Assembly (NCBI RefSeq): GCF_031081985.1
Contig: NZ_JARWSK010000002.1
Span: 62,001 to 126,000, forward strand
Source of the DNA: Komagataeibacter xylinus
Lineage (GTDB): Bacteria > Pseudomonadota > Alphaproteobacteria > Acetobacterales > Acetobacteraceae
DNA length: 64,000 bases
Direction: 5' to 3'
Under the pieces are notes generated by a model. The model did no database searches and was not told the DNA's origin. It saw nothing but the letters and a program-made list of their open reading frames with translations. The position numbers and the translations under genes were made by a program. Below, one piece after another: positions 2,134-9,934 of the stretch. Each line of letters starts with the position of its first letter. Position 1 is the stretch's first letter.

Positions 2134-2378
2134 TCGCACCATTTAACCATAAACCGTTATATATCAATAACTTAATATCAAAAACTATGACGTTTTGGCC
2201 TGTAGCGCTACGTCAATGACGCTCCACCCAGACACATACGCTGATGCCATATGCAAGCGGCCATAGGCAAGAGACGAGACAAAAAGGGGCAGCACCATGA
2301 GAAAAGCAGCGCGGTGTTGCCTTCCATATGATGCTGCCCAAAGAAGCTCGTATTTTAGCTTCTGACGTGCCTGTCTTG

Positions 2379-2990
2379 TCAGGCCGGTGTTAGTGACTCA
2401 GGGAAGGCAAAAGTAGCCTGTGCAGCATCCTGAGCGGCTGTAGTCGACTGACAACGCTGTATGAGCTTGCGGATACTGGCACGCCTCCGGCCTGTGTCTT
2501 GAGCTATTTGCCTGATTGGCGTTCCCTCGCCATATCGCCGGATAATTTCAGACGCTTCCACAGGTGTAATGCGCGGATTGGCTTTGCCTGCAACGCCTCT
2601 GCACTTCGCAGCCATATCAGCTACATTTTCGCGCTGTGTTCCGACTCGAAGATTGCTAAGGCTGACGTTGAGCGGGTTATCATCTATGTGCATAATAACC
2701 TTCTCGGCAATCGGCCATCCAGCAAGTTCGGCTTGGGCACGGTGCACAGGGACTAACGCCCCCTGATGCCAAATGTGCGGGTAGCCGTCACTGTCGCACG
2801 ACCCTGTCCAAAGTCCGGTATCAGGATCGGTATAATAGGCAAGGGCATCCTCCAAGCTCAGTCCGCGCGGTCGCTGTTTCCTTTTCTGCTTTGTTTCTGA
2901 TGATGATTTGGTTTTATCGTTGCTGAGTTTATCAGCCGGGTAAGAGGTAAAGCTGTCTCTGTTCAATGACTTTCGAATGGTTGGCACCAC
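2379..2990 (-). CDS. HNH endonuclease with C-terminal helix-turn-helix
   Basis: A 203-residue protein. Residues 80-125 carry an HNH pattern (H83, then HIDDNPLNVSLSNL from H101 with N108 and N113) like the HNH homing endonucleases of phages and mobile elements. Residues 141-178 look like a resolvase-type helix-turn-helix that would bind DNA. The N-terminal 40 residues are basic and of low complexity. The start is a GTG at 2990 without a clear ribosome binding site. It is the outermost gene at the left end of the element and may cut target DNA for homing or for competition between elements. Confidence 0.75.
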   Translation of the reverse strand: MVPTIRKSLNRDSFTSYPADKLSNDKTKSSSETKQKRKQRPRGLSLEDALAYYTDPDTGLWTGSCDSDGYPHIWHQGALVPVHRAQAELAGWPIAEKVIMHIDDNPLNVSLSNLRVGTQRENVADMAAKCRGVAGKANPRITPVEASEIIRRYGEGTPIRQIAQDTGRRRASIRKLIQRCQSTTAAQDAAQATFAFPESLTPA

Positions 2991-3143
2991 AGAAAGGCAT
3001 TGGCAGAAGCCCGCTCCATGAGAGCAGACTGTCAGCCCTTAACAACGGTATCGTGGTATCCTTCTTTTGTGGTGTGATTTTCGTGGATTTAGGCGTGTCA
3101 ATGTTCTGCACCTTACGTTCTGAGCGGTGACACAGTTACGCTC

Positions 3144-3180
3144 ATGTCAGACAGGCTCACCCATGCGGGTCTGTCTCACA
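3144..3180. other. Imperfect hairpin in the element's left intergenic region
   Basis: Arms AGACAGG...CACCC and GGGTCTGTCT around an ATG centre. There is no T-run on either side, so it is not a clear intrinsic terminator. It lies upstream of the HNH gene start and could be a binding or folding site. Confidence 0.3.
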
Positions 3181-3260
3181 CAAGCCTAACCTGTGAGCGG
3201 AAGCGGTCAGGATTACCCGTGCCGCTCCCTTTTTTTGGATTGTTTCGCTACCCGGGCGGC

Positions 3261-3479
3261 CTATTTCAGCGCGTTACCTACGTTTTCGGCCACATCAAGC
3301 AGGGCATTGCCCAGCGTCTCAACCATTGAAGCTACGTAGGCAGCTTCTGCTGGTGTCCACGAGACAGAGGTTTGTGGATGCTTAGGCAGCGTAGTGCCCA
3401 ACGCCTCCGCCAATTCAGCGCAGCGGAGAATATCTTCCCGGTGGTCAATGCCGGAAAGGTGGATGGGGAAAAGGGTCAT
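3261..3479 (-). CDS. Small hypothetical protein
   Basis: A 72-residue frame with a plausible amphipathic, alanine/leucine-rich composition and no known motif. It begins with an ATG at 3479. It sits alone between the HNH gene and a long gene-free stretch. It is the only frame in 2991-4326 that looks protein-like, but its short length means it could be chance. Confidence 0.35.
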   Translation of the reverse strand: MTLFPIHLSGIDHREDILRCAELAEALGTTLPKHPQTSVSWTPAEAAYVASMVETLGNALLDVAENVGNALK

Positions 3480-4326
3480 GTCTTGATCCTTGGGTGGCTG
3501 GGTGCGGCACTATCCGCCTTCTGGTCCTCTGTGAGTGCTGGTCGTGTGAGCTGGTGGCCACCTTGATCCGCCAAGAGCCGATGACCGCCGTGAATCGATA
3601 TGCCGGAACAATGGATATTCTGGTATCCACAATTCAGAAGAACTCACAATCAGTAATTATTCTGGTCATAATTGATTTATTGTTGTATATAATGCCTATA
3701 ACGTCATGAAATCACAAAAGCACAACGTCACTAATACAATATACTATCGCATTTTATACGAAGGCACTAAGGCAGCGTTCTTCTATCGCCCATCGAAAGT
3801 GAGGCGTGCTCAGGTGTTGCACGTTGCAAGGTAGAGCGTTAATGCGACCCCATTTATCGACCACGCAGAATTAAAGCCTATTTATCATTTGTATGGTCGA
3901 TAACAGATCGACTTTATTCGGCCTGTCCTTTTCGGGGCGCTTCCCTATTAGGGCGACCATTTCGCCATATCCTCCGTAACCCCTTGAGATAATTATAGAA
4001 ATCACAGTTATACACAGGCACACATTACAGGCCCGTTAGGTAGCCAGAGAAGGGACCCGAGCCGTGCTCAGCCGTTTCCGCCGGGGAAGTTCTCTCACCG
4101 TTTCGCTGAACAACAACAACGGCTTTACTCCCTCTCGTTGGAAGTGCGACCGGTCACATTTCTGGCCGTCTAGTGGACCGTTTTGGAGTCCCGAAGAGGT
4201 CCAGACGCATCCGCATTCCTCAGTCATGCGTTTTCCGAATCGCCGTGATTCCAGATTGTTCGTGGTCTATCCGTGCGTTCTGCCTGTATCAAATCAGACA
4301 ACGAATGACGACAGGAATGTAACGCC
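3480..4326. other. Long non-coding stretch inside the mobile element
   Basis: I find no convincing gene in this 847-bp stretch. It includes an AT-rich part (about 3590-3760) and a perfect 10-bp inverted repeat, TTATCGACCA at 3854-3863 and TGGTCGATAA at 3894-3903. A further GATCGAC lies just after it. It precedes the rightward serine recombinase and polymerase-like genes, so it is the best candidate for the element's promoter, operator or replication-origin region. Confidence 0.4.
3854..3903. promoter_or_regulatory. 10-bp inverted repeat, possible operator or origin site
   Basis: TTATCGACCA and TGGTCGATAA are exact reverse complements, separated by 30 bases of AT-rich sequence. Too far apart for a typical terminator; spacing is compatible with paired protein-binding sites. 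Function is inferred only from symmetry and location upstream of the rightward gene block. Confidence 0.35.
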
Positions 4327-5016
4327 ATGCAGAAAGCAATCGCATACGTCCGGGTAAGCACGGCCAAGCAGGGCAAGAGCGGCCTCGGCATGGATGCGCA
4401 GCTTGCGGCCATACAGCATTTTGCACAGGCAGAGGGCTTCAGCGTGGTGGAAGTGTTCACGGAGATAGAGACCGGCAAGGGCAGCGACGCGCTGACAAAG
4501 CGGCCTCAACTCCGCAATGCGCTGGATAAGGCCAAGGTCATGCAATGCCCGGTGATCGTGGCAAAGTTGGACCGCCTCAGTCGTGACGTGGCGTTTATCG
4601 CTGGCCTGATGGTTGAGCGTGTCCCGTTTATCGTGGCCGAGCTTGGCAAGGATGCCGATCCGTTCATGCTCCACATCTGGGCAGCCATGGCGGAGAAGGA
4701 ACGCCGTATGATCTCCGAACGGACAAAGGCGGCCCTAGCCGCTGCAAAGGCCCGTGGCGTCGTTCTAGGTGGAAAGCGTGGCGGTCCTGCACCGGACCAT
4801 GCGAAGGGCACAGCGGCCATTCAGGCGAAGGCAGCAGCGTTCAAGAGCCACGTAGGGCCGATCATAGCCGACCTGCATGCCAAAGGGCTTTCCCTGCGGG
4901 CCATTGCTGCCGAGCTTATGAGCATGGGCATCAAGACCAGCCGTGGCCGTGAAACATGGACCGCAGCGGCGGTAAAGCGGTGTCTTGCTCCCGATCAGAG
5001 TGCAGTCCTCACATAA
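4327..5016 (+). CDS. Serine recombinase, resolvase/invertase family
   Basis: A 229-residue protein. The N-terminal catalytic domain begins [12 protein letters not shown], with Ser11 as the expected nucleophile, and contains the conserved DRLSRD motif near residues 80-86. The long E-helix ([19 protein letters not shown]) follows, then a basic segment and a helix-turn-helix near the C terminus ([20 protein letters not shown]). Size fits the small resolvase/invertase group, not large serine integrases. A ribosome binding site (AGGAA) precedes the ATG. In this element it may resolve multimers, invert DNA or regulate excision beside the tyrosine integrase. Confidence 0.88.
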
Positions 5017-5309
5017 GCCTCGTCATTATTCCATGCTTATTATGAATAAGTATATCAACATCAATCGGTATTTTATTGGGTATGTGTATATAGCGGCATG
5101 GAAATAAGATTGAGCAGGTAAATCCATACCACCATCACCTTCCATTCAGAATGCAGCCCTGATCCGTTGCTTGATGGTGGATCATCTTCACCTACACACC
5201 CAGCACCTACGGTATGGATGTATGATGTGGGCTGGATGATGATAGTGATGATTATCCATTTTTCCCCTTTCCTTCTCCTATCTTCTAGAGGATACCCTTA
5301 GGAGGATAA
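5017..5309. other. AT-rich spacer before the polymerase-like gene
   Basis: No gene seen. A small AT-rich hairpin, CTTATT-ATG-AATAAG (5036-5050), follows the recombinase stop. Several GATG-type short repeats lie at 5170-5250. The stretch ends with AGGAGG at 5300-5305, four bases ahead of the GTG start of the next gene. Confidence 0.4.
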
Positions 5310-6719
5310 GTGGAAAGGTTTCGGACCATAATGAATGCGCCACAGGACACATTCCAGAAGCGACCACCATCACATCATCACGACACTGAAGAATTACAGG
5401 AAGCTCGCACGCTATCCCTTGGTCGCCGTCCGCACGGAGAAGCGGCGGAAAAGCTCGTAGCCGAAGTAGCTGATGCCCTCCGTCCACTGGTTGCACGGGC
5501 GGGAAAGCCCATCACAACAGCGCCTAAAAGAGACCGTGACAAGGGCCAGGAGCGCCGCATACAGGAAACCGGCATCATTCTTGCGGGGCTGATGCGCAGC
5601 GGCTTTCGTGGAGATTGGCAAGCTGTCCACGAAGGCTCTGCCCGCTGGTTTTGGGGGAAAGACCGCAACTTACCGATCGGCCATAATGCCTTCTGGAAGA
5701 AAGCCTGCGCCATGATAGAGCTTGGCTTCTTGGACTATGTTCCGGGTAAAGGCTGGAAGAACGATTGGGGGGACTGGCAGGGCGAGGAGGCCCGCATAAG
5801 GCCCTCAGCGGCCCTCTTGCAGCTTGCGGAGTCGTGCGGGTGCACTCGGACCACAGCGGTTGCAGACTGGCCGCTCCGGCATCCTGCGCCCGTCTTATCG
5901 GACTGCCAGCCTGTTAGCATCAAGCCGTTTCCCGGTGCAGCGCTGCCACAGGACACGGTGCCTCAATCGCTTACGGATTTCATGGCGCGTCTATCCTCCG
6001 CTATGGCCCTTCATCGCATTACAGGATGCGCCGCTCCGGTATTCCAGATGAGCTTTACCGGCTCGCTAGACTTCGGAGGGCGCATCTATGCCAAGGGCGC
6101 GGATAACTACCAGAACAGCCTACTTAAGGCGGACAGGCAATTCATCACGATAGACGATGAACCTGTGGCCGAAGTCGATATATCTGCCTCTTTCCTGTCC
6201 ATTGCTCTGATCTTGTCGGGCGGGACAATGCCGCCGGAGGGTGACTTATATGACCTTCCTTGGGTAGCACCATCACACCGTGCCGCTGTTAAACAATGGT
6301 TTGTCGGGGCATTCGGGATTGGCAAGCCGTGCGCTCGCTGGCCCAAGAGCACACCTGTTGATATTCGGGATAGCATCGCCGCATCAGCTATCTGCAAGGC
6401 TGCGACAAGGCGATATTCTTTTCTGTCCGACCTGAGCAGGCTTGTGCCAGCCGAGACAATGGCAACCGTCCCGGTTGACTACCGCTCGAAAGCCGTAGGA
6501 CAGTTCCTAACTTGCGTGGAAGCCCAGATTATGCGCAGGGCTATGGACTACATTATGGCTCAAGGCAGCGTTGCGCTGCCCATGCATGACGCTTTGATCG
6601 TGCCCCGCTCATGGGCTGACAAGACACGTGAGGCAATCGTGCGGGCCAGCAAGGATCGGCTGGGGCAGCCCCTTCGGGTCACAATATCGGATGCCAGCGG
6701 GCCAAATCCGCCGAAGTGA
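5310..6719 (+). CDS. Polymerase-like protein with T7-RNAP/family-A motifs
   Basis: A 469-residue protein of no named family that I can give. Four motifs appear in the order found in single-subunit (T7-like) RNA polymerases: DFGGRIY at 254-260 (compare DxRGRxY), motif A-like VDISASF with Asp290, motif B-like K328QWFVGAFG, and motif C-like MHDAL with His426-Asp427. The residues that would bind catalytic metals are therefore Asp290 and Asp427. The N-terminal half (1-240) has no recognised domain. The GTG start at 5310 has a strong AGGAGG; ATG at 5331 is an alternative. It overlaps the Bro-N gene by four bases. It may replicate, prime or transcribe the element. The polymerase fold is inferred from motifs, not proven. 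Confidence 0.7.
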   Translation: MERFRTIMNAPQDTFQKRPPSHHHDTEELQEARTLSLGRRPHGEAAEKLVAEVADALRPLVARAGKPITTAPKRDRDKGQERRIQETGIILAGLMRSGFRGDWQAVHEGSARWFWGKDRNLPIGHNAFWKKACAMIELGFLDYVPGKGWKNDWGDWQGEEARIRPSAALLQLAESCGCTRTTAVADWPLRHPAPVLSDCQPVSIKPFPGAALPQDTVPQSLTDFMARLSSAMALHRITGCAAPVFQMSFTGSLDFGGRIYAKGADNYQNSLLKADRQFITIDDEPVAEVDISASFLSIALILSGGTMPPEGDLYDLPWVAPSHRAAVKQWFVGAFGIGKPCARWPKSTPVDIRDSIAASAICKAATRRYSFLSDLSRLVPAETMATVPVDYRSKAVGQFLTCVEAQIMRRAMDYIMAQGSVALPMHDALIVPRSWADKTREAIVRASKDRLGQPLRVTISDASGPNPPK

Positions 6720-7228
6720 CCATTGAGACCTTCACGAAGCTAGATGGCACCTTGTGTAAGGTCCGTGTGGTGGAAAGGGAGGGTAAGCCATGGTTTGCCG
6801 CTGCGGATGTTTGCACAGCTCTTGGCCTGAAGAACCCGACCGTTACGCTCCGCCACGTCGCACCTAACGACAAGGCTAAATCCGTCTTAGGGGAACGTGT
6901 AGGGAACATTGTCTCCGAAGCGGGTCTTTATCGCATCGTCCTGCGCTGTGACAAACCCGATGCACGCCCCTTTCAGGATTGGGTGACGCACACAGTGCTG
7001 CCCACGCTCCGTAAGGAAGGTGCTTATGTCCGTGATGAAGAGAAGATTGCGGATGTTAAGGACGTGCAGGACCTTGATGCCCTTAACGATATGCTTGTGA
7101 ACCTGATGAAGCGCAAGACGGAGCTGCTAGAGGCCCGCTTGGCTGAGAAGGAAGCTGTCATTCAGCAGCAGGCCCCGAAGGTTTCCCCTTATGAAGATGT
7201 ATGGCAGTTAAAACTGATTGATATTTAG
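6716..7228 (+). CDS. Bro-N domain antirepressor-like protein
   Basis: A 170-residue protein. Residues 1-105 match the Bro-N fold of phage antirepressors: KPWFAAADVCTALGLKNP, then RHVAPNDKAK, a GLYRIVLRC segment and FQDWVTHTVLPTLRKEGAYV. The rest is helical, possibly a coiled coil, with no second known domain. It starts at a GTG whose last two bases are part of the upstream TGA stop (GTGA overlap), so it is probably translationally coupled to the polymerase-like gene. Such proteins usually bind DNA or a repressor to switch element gene expression. Confidence 0.82.
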   Translation: MTIETFTKLDGTLCKVRVVEREGKPWFAAADVCTALGLKNPTVTLRHVAPNDKAKSVLGERVGNIVSEAGLYRIVLRCDKPDARPFQDWVTHTVLPTLRKEGAYVRDEEKIADVKDVQDLDALNDMLVNLMKRKTELLEARLAEKEAVIQQQAPKVSPYEDVWQLKLIDI

Positions 7229-7243
7229 GTAGGACACTCGTCA

Positions 7244-8125
7244 ATGTCAGCCAACCAGTCGAGCCGAGGTAAAATTAGTCGCCAGTTTAGCGGCACAACA
7301 GGCACGCCTGTAGATAGATTTGTGGCAGGCAACCAACCTCATGATGAATGGATTTATCTTTCTGCACGATTTCCTACAGGTATAAGGCGCGGCACCATCG
7401 CGCAACAATCCAATGAGACACAACAATTTGTGGCCGATTGGTGGTTTCTAAGCAATTATGAGCCCTTCAGTTTTTCCAAAGGCGGCCCTTACTTCGGTTT
7501 TGATGAGGATGCGCCTAGGTTAAATGAAGGAATATACCATCCATTCTTCCTCATCTCTGAAACAATACTAAAATCTGAGTTTGGAGATATTTTGGAGGAG
7601 GATGTTCTTCAGAAACTGGTCAAAAGACATCCCGGCAGATGGATGCCCATATTAGAACCTCGTGTATCTTTTCAGGATACCCCTCGGACCAAAGAAGCAA
7701 TCCGACAAGACCTTGCCAGACGTCTTGAGGTCTTAGAGCGACAAATCCAAAGCATGCCGACGCAGCCCGAATCTGTTGACCGGCACGGGATAGGCGGAAA
7801 TCACCCACCCAGCGACATTGATACGCCGTTGCCTCAGTTGCTTCTAAAAGCCGATAAAGCTGAAGCCTTGGCGCTTATATCAGAATGTCGGTCTAGCATT
7901 TCAGACGGTGCCCCAGCACAAGACGTCAGCAAGGTTTGGGAAAAACTCAAACCATACTTGGCGCAACTTGGGTCATTCGCTAAGTGGCTTCTAGGAAAAG
8001 TCGTGGATGGCGCAGCCAAACAAGTGGGCTCCAATTTTATCCAACTTCTTCCTAAGCTCGTCCAAATGCATAACAATGGTGCGACCATTTCCAAACTTAT
8101 AGCGGTTCTGTTAGGATTCGATTAA
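7244..8125 (+). CDS. Hypothetical protein, accessory gene of the element
   Basis: A 293-residue protein I do not recognise. The N-terminal 150 residues are aromatic-rich and globular. A helical segment (about 145-165) follows, then IGGNHPPSDID (near 182-192), a short motif often seen in alphaproteobacterial phage and plasmid proteins. The C-terminal third is helical and ends in a hydrophobic stretch (SKLIAVLLGF). Base composition is clearly more AT-rich than the chromosome. It lies 15 bp after the Bro-N gene on the same strand. Its position beside the integrase is where cargo genes of such elements are often found. Confidence 0.75.
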   Translation: MSANQSSRGKISRQFSGTTGTPVDRFVAGNQPHDEWIYLSARFPTGIRRGTIAQQSNETQQFVADWWFLSNYEPFSFSKGGPYFGFDEDAPRLNEGIYHPFFLISETILKSEFGDILEEDVLQKLVKRHPGRWMPILEPRVSFQDTPRTKEAIRQDLARRLEVLERQIQSMPTQPESVDRHGIGGNHPPSDIDTPLPQLLLKADKAEALALISECRSSISDGAPAQDVSKVWEKLKPYLAQLGSFAKWLLGKVVDGAAKQVGSNFIQLLPKLVQMHNNGATISKLIAVLLGFD

Positions 8126-8147: not shown

Positions 8148-9743
8148 TTAGGCCCGCATAGCTTGCAAGACAGCCTCGGCAATGCCTCTCTCGCCCATCT
8201 CCGTGATTGCCCGGTCATACACTGACCAGTCAAACCGCTTGGCCGCGTAGGTGTTGGTCGCCAACGTCACAGGCTTATGCCCAAGCAGGTGATCCAGCAC
8301 CAGATCAGAGCAACTATCGGCCCCGTTGGCCTCCGCCTGCTTGATGAACGTGGCGAAGCACCGCCGGAAGCTGTGGAAGTCCACCGTGTTATCCTCGCCC
8401 AGCACGGACTTGAGAAAGGTGGCATAGCGTTTGGAAAGGTAGTGCCCCGGCTTATCGTCGCGGCCACCCGGCTTGCATTCGGGGAAGATCATGGCATCCG
8501 CATCATGCGGGTTAGGAAGGTCCGCAAGCCGCTGTTCAATGACCGCCTGGGCAATCGGATGCAAGGGCAGTTCCCGAACGGATGATCGGGTCTTGCTCAC
8601 GTTCTCAGTGATGGAAATACGCCAAAGCTGGCCCGGATGCTGTGGGCGGATAACGCGGCCCACGGTCAGACTGGCAAGCTCATTCTGGCGGCAACCTGTG
8701 AGCGGTGCCAGCCGGAGCATGTCATAAATCACCCGTGCCCATTGGCTGCGCTTGGGTTGCGCCACACGCTCCCTTGCCTGTGTCAGTAGCTGGACAAGCT
8801 CGGCATCTGTATATGGCCGTTTTTCACCCCGCGCACGGGAGGCGAGGCTAATCTTGCGCTTGAGGCCCCGCGTTGATCCTGCCCACGGGTTGACCTCCGC
8901 GTAGCCTACGTCCTGCGCCCATTTCCAGAATGTATTCATGGTGGACAGATGGAAGCCGACCACGCGCGGGCCGACTCCGGGCACCTTTTCCAGCCATTCC
9001 CGAAAATGCCCCGCTGTCTTTCTGTCTATGCGCTCTATAGCGATGCTGCGGGCGTATCCCTCCGGGTCGCTTGTCTCGATGCCTGCGGCTTCCGCAAGGT
9101 GCTGCCCTAGCCGCGACAATGCCCGGTGGTGGCGGTCTATCAGTTCCTTGGTCACTACGCCGTCAAGCTGCGGAAACCAGCGATCCAGCAGCACACCGAG
9201 GGGCGTGGCTGTCCCGAAAGCTATGGCCTGCGCCTGCTGGTAGGCATCACGGGCTGCTTTCTGTCCTGCTGGGCCACCTGTTGCCTGTGCGATTCGCTGG
9301 GCTGATGCTGAGAGCGACTCCCTCACCACATCGGCCCCGAAGTCACGATCCGATATGCTCTCACTGACAATGACTCCCGTGGTCGGGTCATCGTTCAGGT
9401 AGTAGGGCTTCCGGTAGTCGTTAGCTTCCTCAAGAGCCTGCCGTGCCTCTAGGGCTTGGTCCGTTAGCTGCTGGCGCAAATCACAACAGGCAGGCGACCA
9501 GTCACCATGCAACGGAGGGAGGCCATGCGCCGCAAGGGCCGCGTCAACCTCCGTGCGGATGGCCGCCAGCTTCGCATCGCGCCGTAGCAGGGCTTGCCGG
9601 TAATCCTTGGTGTGGAGGGATTTGACAATATCCCGGCGTGTTCCGGCACGGGCTGCTGTTGCCCTGCCCACGTCCTGCCATCGGTCCTGCGGAACAATGA
9701 GCCGCACATAGTAGGTGCTGCCCCGCTTGGTCATGTTGTGCAT
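8148..9743 (-). CDS. int: Tyrosine recombinase (integrase) of the element
   Basis: About 531 residues. The N-terminal part (RGSTYYVRLIVPQ) resembles the arm/core-binding leader of alphaproteobacterial integrases. Catalytic residues are visible: Arg in TGCRQNELASLT (about 350), HSFRR (His about 455 with Arg three residues later), LLGHKP, and Tyr in NTYA (about 498). I chose the ATG at 9743 because AAGGGTGAG precedes it by six bases; an upstream in-frame start at 9797 would add 18 residues. It lies about 115 bp from tRNA-His and should catalyse integration at, and excision from, the tRNA 3' end. Confidence 0.93.
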   Translation of the reverse strand: MHNMTKRGSTYYVRLIVPQDRWQDVGRATAARAGTRRDIVKSLHTKDYRQALLRRDAKLAAIRTEVDAALAAHGLPPLHGDWSPACCDLRQQLTDQALEARQALEEANDYRKPYYLNDDPTTGVIVSESISDRDFGADVVRESLSASAQRIAQATGGPAGQKAARDAYQQAQAIAFGTATPLGVLLDRWFPQLDGVVTKELIDRHHRALSRLGQHLAEAAGIETSDPEGYARSIAIERIDRKTAGHFREWLEKVPGVGPRVVGFHLSTMNTFWKWAQDVGYAEVNPWAGSTRGLKRKISLASRARGEKRPYTDAELVQLLTQARERVAQPKRSQWARVIYDMLRLAPLTGCRQNELASLTVGRVIRPQHPGQLWRISITENVSKTRSSVRELPLHPIAQAVIEQRLADLPNPHDADAMIFPECKPGGRDDKPGHYLSKRYATFLKSVLGEDNTVDFHSFRRCFATFIKQAEANGADSCSDLVLDHLLGHKPVTLATNTYAAKRFDWSVYDRAITEMGERGIAEAVLQAMRA

Positions 9744-9850
9744 GTCATGCTCACCCTTCGCGTTGCGTTTGGGTGTGACGCTAGACCTATGACGCACAGC
9801 TACAGACCAATGACACAGGATTGTCTAAGCTATTGATTTTAAAGGGGAAA

Positions 9851-9876
9851 TACGGGTTGGGGCGAACGACGGGGCT
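9851..9876. other. attR: attachment core within tRNA-His
   Basis: Identical over 26 bp to 2108-2133. Bases 9858-9876 are the tRNA 3' end (CCA, acceptor strand and start of the T arm); 9851-9857 lie just downstream of it. Integration therefore left the tRNA gene complete on this side. Confidence 0.92.
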
Positions 9877-9934
9877 CGAACCCGCGACCACCGGTACCAC
9901 AAACCGGCGCTCTACCAACTGAGCTACGTCCGCC
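9858..9934 (-). tRNA. tRNA-His (anticodon GTG)
   Basis: Folds as a full cloverleaf on the minus strand: 7-bp acceptor stem with an encoded G(-1) facing C73, U8, a GGTTCGAGCCCC T arm, and encoded CCA. The anticodon loop TTGTGGT gives GTG, read as histidine. The encoded G(-1):C73 pair is the tRNA-His identity element. Its 3' end is the integration site of the mobile element. Confidence 0.96.

Follow-up and report, generated by a model that had tools for sequence, protein, structure and literature searches.

A tRNA-His genomic island of Komagataeibacter xylinus encodes a probable family-A-type primase-polymerase with the features of TV-Pol

The analyzed window, a 64,000-nucleotide stretch of Komagataeibacter xylinus DNA, contains a 7.74-kb genomic island inserted in a tRNA-His gene and flanked by 32-bp direct repeats. 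The left attachment repeat (attL, 2102-2133) is identical to the right one (attR, 9845-9876) at 31 of 32 positions, and attR covers the 3′ end of the integration target, tRNA-His(GTG) (9858-9933, minus strand), identified with ARAGORN. Segments lying wholly within the island have a G+C content of 46-62%, compared with 59-73% in most of the surrounding DNA. Both chromosomal flanks are present in all 19 genomes of the genus, and in each of the 18 others they are neighbors on a single contig, at most 105 bp apart, the island being absent there; at six of these empty sites (G135, G222, G634, G640, G641 and G642) the flank matches overlap by exactly 32 bp. The repeats, the tRNA-His gene and the empty sites confirm the proposal, made in an earlier note on this DNA, that the element is integrated in a tRNA gene.

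The island carries a gene for an HNH (homing-type) endonuclease (2379-2990, minus strand; PF13392, E 1.2e-8), which also occurs in the related island L068 of Komagataeibacter sp. FXV3 and gave the only match in a PADLOC scan, a weak one to a homing endonuclease (E 0.002). A small serine recombinase of the resolvase type is encoded at 4327-5016 (plus strand; PF00239, E 1.5e-26; dN/dS approximately 0.10 relative to L068). The intergenic stretch between the resolvase and polymerase genes (5017-5309) contains no recognized gene and is strongly conserved in L068; it is a possible control region, origin or resolution site. The family-A-like polymerase discussed below (469 aa; 5310-6719, plus strand) is followed by a Bro-N protein of the phage antirepressor type (6716-7228, plus strand; PF02498, E 1e-21; phrog_130, E 5e-42), and no KilA-C domain was found in the island by Pfam. 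Between the Bro-N and integrase genes lies an ORF (7244-8125, plus strand) for a 293-aa protein that yielded no Pfam, NCBIfam or PADLOC match, matched PHROGs only at E 0.05-0.06 and has no phmmer relative at E 1e-3 in 60 related loci. The tyrosine integrase gene (8148-9797, minus strand; DUF6538 and phage integrase domains; PF00589, E 4e-6; PF20172, E 1.5e-6) adjoins tRNA-His. Pfam searches recognized no helicase or SSB gene in the island, so a helicase partner encoded within it was rejected.

The ORF at 5310-6719 is a real gene. It has a GTG start codon with the sequence AGGAGG just upstream (5300-5305), and it is under purifying selection, with a dN/dS of approximately 0.13 against the L068 copy, whose protein is 90% identical. 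The four motifs on which the earlier note had based its reading (DFGGRIY, VDISASF, KQWFVGAFG and MHDAL) are all found in the 469-aa product, with D290, K328, H426 and D427 correctly numbered, and Pfam, in line with that note, recognized no N-terminal domain. No exonuclease family was recognized in the protein. Translational coupling to the Bro-N gene, also suggested earlier, stood only in part: the stop codon (TGA, 6717-6719) and the Bro-N start codon (GTG, 6716) do overlap by 4 nt, but in L068 the probable ATG of Bro-N lies approximately 35 nt beyond the polymerase stop. Overlap-based coupling is thus not conserved and was rejected as a family feature. The segment carrying the polymerase ribosome binding site and start (5294-5328) additionally matches positions 6700-6734 of L068, upstream of the resolvase gene there, with 97% identity over 35 bp, which represents a partial duplication.

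L068, from the nearest named relative, keeps the block HNH/resolvase/polymerase/Bro-N, with a DNA identity of 73% over positions 2355-3461 and 84% over positions 4075-7152 of the window. The Bro-N proteins are more diverged than the polymerases (62% aa identity; dN/dS approximately 0.20, with saturated dS). At its other end L068 has a tRNA-Ser gene and a different integrase (L068 3063-4843), and downstream (L068 10773-10864) there is a 92-bp piece that shares 91% identity with the 3′ end of the window integrase gene. Since the block is retained together with another target, another integrase and an integrase relic, the island core seems able to swap its integrase and target.

Residue conservation was assessed in an alignment of 67 rows including the window (A3). 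Its source list comprised 82 rows of at least 380 aa and at least 60 bits, shorter, split and X-containing ORFs having been excluded; A3 leaves out 15 rows that were redundant, long or low-scoring, and the entry L001, which is the window itself, was entered as the window row. Five residues (R258, R276, D290, K328 and D427) are invariant in A3, while R324 and Y314 (66/67 each), H426 (65/67) and D312 (64/67) are nearly so. All 15 rows outside A3 have R258, D290, R324, K328, H426 and D427, and 13 of them have D312. Over all 82 aligned rows, window included, the invariance check proposed earlier holds for D290, K328 and D427 (82/82) and very nearly for H426 (80/82). Because these residues are kept across the family, the motifs are not due to chance.

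This conservation also bears on the idea of a palm-fold protein whose catalysis has been lost and which serves as a regulator or DNA-binding protein. Passages of PMC10061031 describe a precedent in five Bacillota proteins from similar settings, which consist of roughly the RRM only and mostly lack the key Asp. With both catalytic Asp residues present in 82 of 82 rows and the gene under purifying selection, we consider such a loss here to be very improbable.

Searches of Pfam and PDB by HMM, performed with the protein and with alignments A1 and A3, revealed no significant polymerase; bacterial DNA polymerase I (Pol I, PF00476) was matched neither by the protein at E 1 nor by any A3 member at E 0.1. 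Comparison of profiles with hhalign did relate A3 to an alignment of 30 Pol I sequences (94% probability, E 1.2e-7, score 63.6), the best of 20 column shuffles scoring 23.7 and the reversed alignment 12.1. A more diverse set of 80 Pol I sequences gave a probability of 90% and a score of 57.6 (shuffles at most 16.5), and eight unrelated ORF families from the same loci, some of which may be antisense ORF families, scored no higher than 16.7. The Pol I and T7 RNA polymerase alignments were built from ORFs picked by similarity.

The resemblance to Pol I runs motif by motif. R258 is paired with the GR of TTGRLSS, D290 with motif A (SADYSQIE), D312-x-Y314 with DIH, R324-x3-K328 with the O-helix sequence RRxAK, and H426-D427 with VHDE. 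Designations such as O helix, like the roles assigned to the aligned residues, follow general knowledge on Pol I and PMC2579912. With control scores far below those of both Pol I profiles, the claim of a family-A-type polymerase is well supported, and a corresponding fold is predicted for the 469-aa protein from this profile comparison. The protein differs from Pol I in having no recognized exonuclease family, in lying below Pfam detection and in the residue at the position of the Glu of motif A, which in the family is mostly His, Tyr or Phe.

Within this broad call, which was correct, the earlier note had put its emphasis on T7 RNA polymerase and a minimal transcriptase. A T7-like enzyme of this kind would transcribe the genes of the island from a dedicated promoter. 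By eye, the family motif C (LPxHD[SAG]) is indeed T7-like, with HDS or HDA as in T7 RNA polymerase, and the consensus GGR-[LFW]-Y resembles RGRVY of the latter. Two PHROG families labeled "RNA polymerase" have weak matches in four and two of the 67 members, respectively (best E 0.009 and 0.015), and the sole polymerase listed in the PDB profile search was the mitochondrial RNA polymerase, matched at the motif-C end with a non-significant E of 2.8. However, hhalign to T7-like RNA polymerases (PF00940) gave no significant match: it aligned the motif-C stretch only, with scores of 22.0 and 20.4 that stay below the top shuffle scores (26.8 and 25.9), whereas the Pol I profile of comparable diversity reaches the 63.6 given above. 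This negative result is weak evidence, because the positive control, Pol I against T7 RNA polymerase, failed as well (21.8 and 16.9), which makes the T7 profile test one of low power. The protein is also approximately half the size of T7 RNA polymerase (883 aa), with no further domain recognized by Pfam.

Motif B speaks against the transcriptase too. The sequence KQWFVGAFG is present, as had been noted, but its reading as the "YG" of motif B was rejected. Residues F335-G336 precede the position of the YG of T7 RNA polymerase by one residue, and in the family they are mostly L, I or F followed by G or N. At position K+8, which corresponds to the O-helix Tyr of Pol I, 52 of the 67 rows of A3 have G or N (33 and 19, respectively) and none has Tyr. 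The conserved part of this region is R324-x3-K328. Given the motif-C-only match in a low-power test and the absent motif-B YG, a T7-like transcriptase was rejected; we regard it as very unlikely, and the emphasis on T7-type transcription as unsupported.

A second difference from Pol I is found five residues after the motif-A Asp. Here A3 has His in 32 of 67 rows, Tyr in 9, Phe in 6 and Gln in 6, the window having Phe, while Glu is invariant in the 30 Pol I sequences (alignment A5). Since this Glu is mostly replaced and no Tyr occurs at K+8, the choice of sugar and the stacking on the template are probably arranged otherwise than in Pol I.

The features of the island polymerase fit TV-Pol, a family known since 2008 and little tested in the laboratory. 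TV-Pols were described as relatives of Pol I and T7 RNA polymerase of 400-600 residues, with an absolutely conserved Arg in a beta-hairpin, two metal-binding Asp in the palm, a thumb of two helices, and fingers of HTH fold bearing an Asp and RxxxK (Iyer, Abhiman and Aravind 2008, PMC2579912). These authors proposed them to be minimal family-A primase-polymerases near the ancestor shared by Pol I and T7 RNA polymerase, and found that the mobile elements encoding them often include genes for a gamma-delta resolvase, a lambda-type integrase or a transposase (PMC2579912). The size of the window protein agrees with this description, as do its residues, compared here as residues and not as hairpin or fold: the hairpin-type Arg, of the template-Arg motif, is R258 (67/67 and 15/15), paired with the GR of Pol I; the palm-type Asp pair is D290 and D427 (67/67 and 15/15); and the fingers-type residues are D312 (64/67), R324 (66/67) and K328 (67/67). 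The mobile setting agrees as well, the resolvase, integrase and Bro-N neighbors all being present in the island, and many of the elements described are likewise alphaproteobacterial. A Brucella element combines TV-Pol, a resolvase and a Bro-N/KilA-C protein (PMC2579912), the same trio as here except that no KilA-C domain was found. In contrast to TV-Pol elements as described, the Komagataeibacter island resides in tRNA-His, combines a tyrosine integrase with a resolvase, and has no recognized D5 helicase.

A TV-Pol element has been reported in phage Ma-LMM01 (PMC2579912). In the genome of this phage, MAP_030 was the only match at E up to 10; it is weak (E 0.0125, 10.2 bits), but its score was reached by none of 1000 shuffles (499 scored, best 8.7). 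MAP_030 has His five residues after the motif-A Asp and adjoins two transposase genes, and from this place beside transposases we infer that it is the TV-Pol meant by Iyer et al.

Relatives of the polymerase are scattered. The gene occurs in two of the 19 genomes of the genus (that of the window and G637), in 17 of 249 genomes of the family and in 24 of 385 of the class, the latter two counts including the window genome. A scan of 84,980 species genomes with two short patterns found relatives in at least 43 loci. Further relatives were present in 17 viral contigs, for which a search with the single protein as query was unproductive, and in two plasmid records, of Neorhizobium and Sphingomonas. 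Five phage records matched, belonging to Aeromonas phages 2L372X, 2L372D and phiA047, and the phage collection yielded no match in a non-Aeromonas phage. Gene 127 of phage 2L372X (L145 5446-6798; phage genome approximately 116 kb) is a clear member (181 bits) that is annotated as hypothetical. All 67 members of A3 match PHROG 4756, of unknown function. Similar uncharacterized proteins do occur in other Alphaproteobacteria, as the earlier note stated, and their features and neighbors were described in 2008 as those of TV-Pol (PMC2579912). In five loci (L105, L009, L005, L006 and L086) the relatives are shortened or divided into two or three open pieces, which suggests decayed copies. In Aureimonas psammosilenae a 754-aa ORF (L107 7458-9719) matches the polymerase only in its middle part (residues approximately 208-453), and the additional N- and C-terminal parts may be fused.

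Recombinase genes are recurrent neighbors of the polymerase. Among the 60 related loci, 25 have a match to the resolvase and 24 to the integrase, 37 have at least one of these and 12 both, and Bro-N is matched in three; these counts were obtained with iterated profiles built from the window genes on the flanks at hand, many loci ending at contig ends. Independently of these profiles, 255 of 263 neighbor ORFs were scanned with Pfam (42 of 43 loci; eight ORFs of at least 810 aa, including the only one of L104, were excluded). Resolvases (19) and integrases (18) clearly outnumber the other listed neighbor families, with which they are contrasted here: among the 25 families listed per batch, the others have at most three members per batch, except for DUF6538 and HTH_7, which accompany recombinases, and any family outside the 25 has at most one. 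In a subset of TV-Pols a D5-like helicase is fused to the polymerase or encoded next to it. No D5-like helicase is recognized in the island, and no D5 family stands among the 25 listed per batch for these ORFs.

Tyrosine recombinases and small serine recombinases are not known to leave gaps in need of filling. This counts against a narrower role for the polymerase, in which it would be a DNA polymerase acting only at recombination or integration joints and not a replication initiator, although the recurrence of recombinases, not helicases, as partners and the lack of a recognized SSB or helicase in the island would fit such gap filling. CCPol of SCCmec was counted as a TV-Pol by Iyer et al. 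(PMC2579912), and passages of PMC7581432 describe it as a DNA polymerase that requires both catalytic Asp and acts as a DNA primase only together with its partner MP; this priming argues further against a mere gap-filling function, which we consider unlikely. To the knowledge of Bebel et al. (2020), as stated in a passage of PMC7581432, CCPol was the only TV-Pol characterized biochemically, and a passage of PMC11348598 mentions TV-Pol in passing. A partial literature search found no study after 2008 devoted to the alphaproteobacterial branch.

The island polymerase resembles CCPol in its family-A core without a complete exonuclease and in its association with an element bearing serine recombinases (passages of PMC7581432 and PMC10061031). 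According to passages of PMC10061031, a prediction identifies MP as an SSB with an OB fold, and comparable pairs are found in Bacillota. The sequence of CCPol has led to its annotation as PolA, and CCPol is accompanied by MP and a helicase (passages of PMC7581432 and PMC10061031), none of which was recognized here; at the level of Pfam families the island has no match to an OB-fold SSB or a Cch-type helicase, although an OB fold is conceivable for the 293-aa protein. Lacking two residues of Pol I, the Glu of motif A and the Tyr of the O helix, the island polymerase family may treat its substrates differently from CCPol, the comparison having been made with Pol I and not with the sequence of CCPol itself.

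Taken together, the sequence evidence favors, with a probability of about 0.7, the reading of the ORF at 5310-6719 as a TV-Pol, a family-A-type primase-polymerase that starts and extends the DNA of the island with the help of a host helicase. Mobility of the island, with the 3′ end of tRNA-His as its insertion site, would depend on the tyrosine integrase. Once the integrase has excised the island, or while the island moves replicatively as proposed in PMC2579912, the polymerase would start and extend its DNA strands; the resolvase would separate the products or resolve dimers or cointegrates, with Bro-N as the putative regulator of the switch. Since no helicase was recognized in the island, one of the host is assumed to serve the polymerase.

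A bolder proposal, which we put forward as speculative, is that the alphaproteobacterial branch constitutes a helicase-free, recombinase-coupled replication module, whose polymerase might use both NTPs and dNTPs and prime its own synthesis. Such substrate use and self-priming are conceivable because mostly His, Tyr or Phe replace Glu at the sugar-sensing position of motif A and the O-helix Tyr is missing. Were this so, islands of this type could replicate with a core of resolvase and polymerase while freely exchanging integrases and, with them, tRNA targets. The island is small and has clean ends, 18 relatives in the genus offer the empty site, and two substrate-selecting positions of the polymerase are unlike those of Pol I; the island is therefore a tractable case in which to ask whether TV-Pols prime DNA synthesis, and with which nucleotides.
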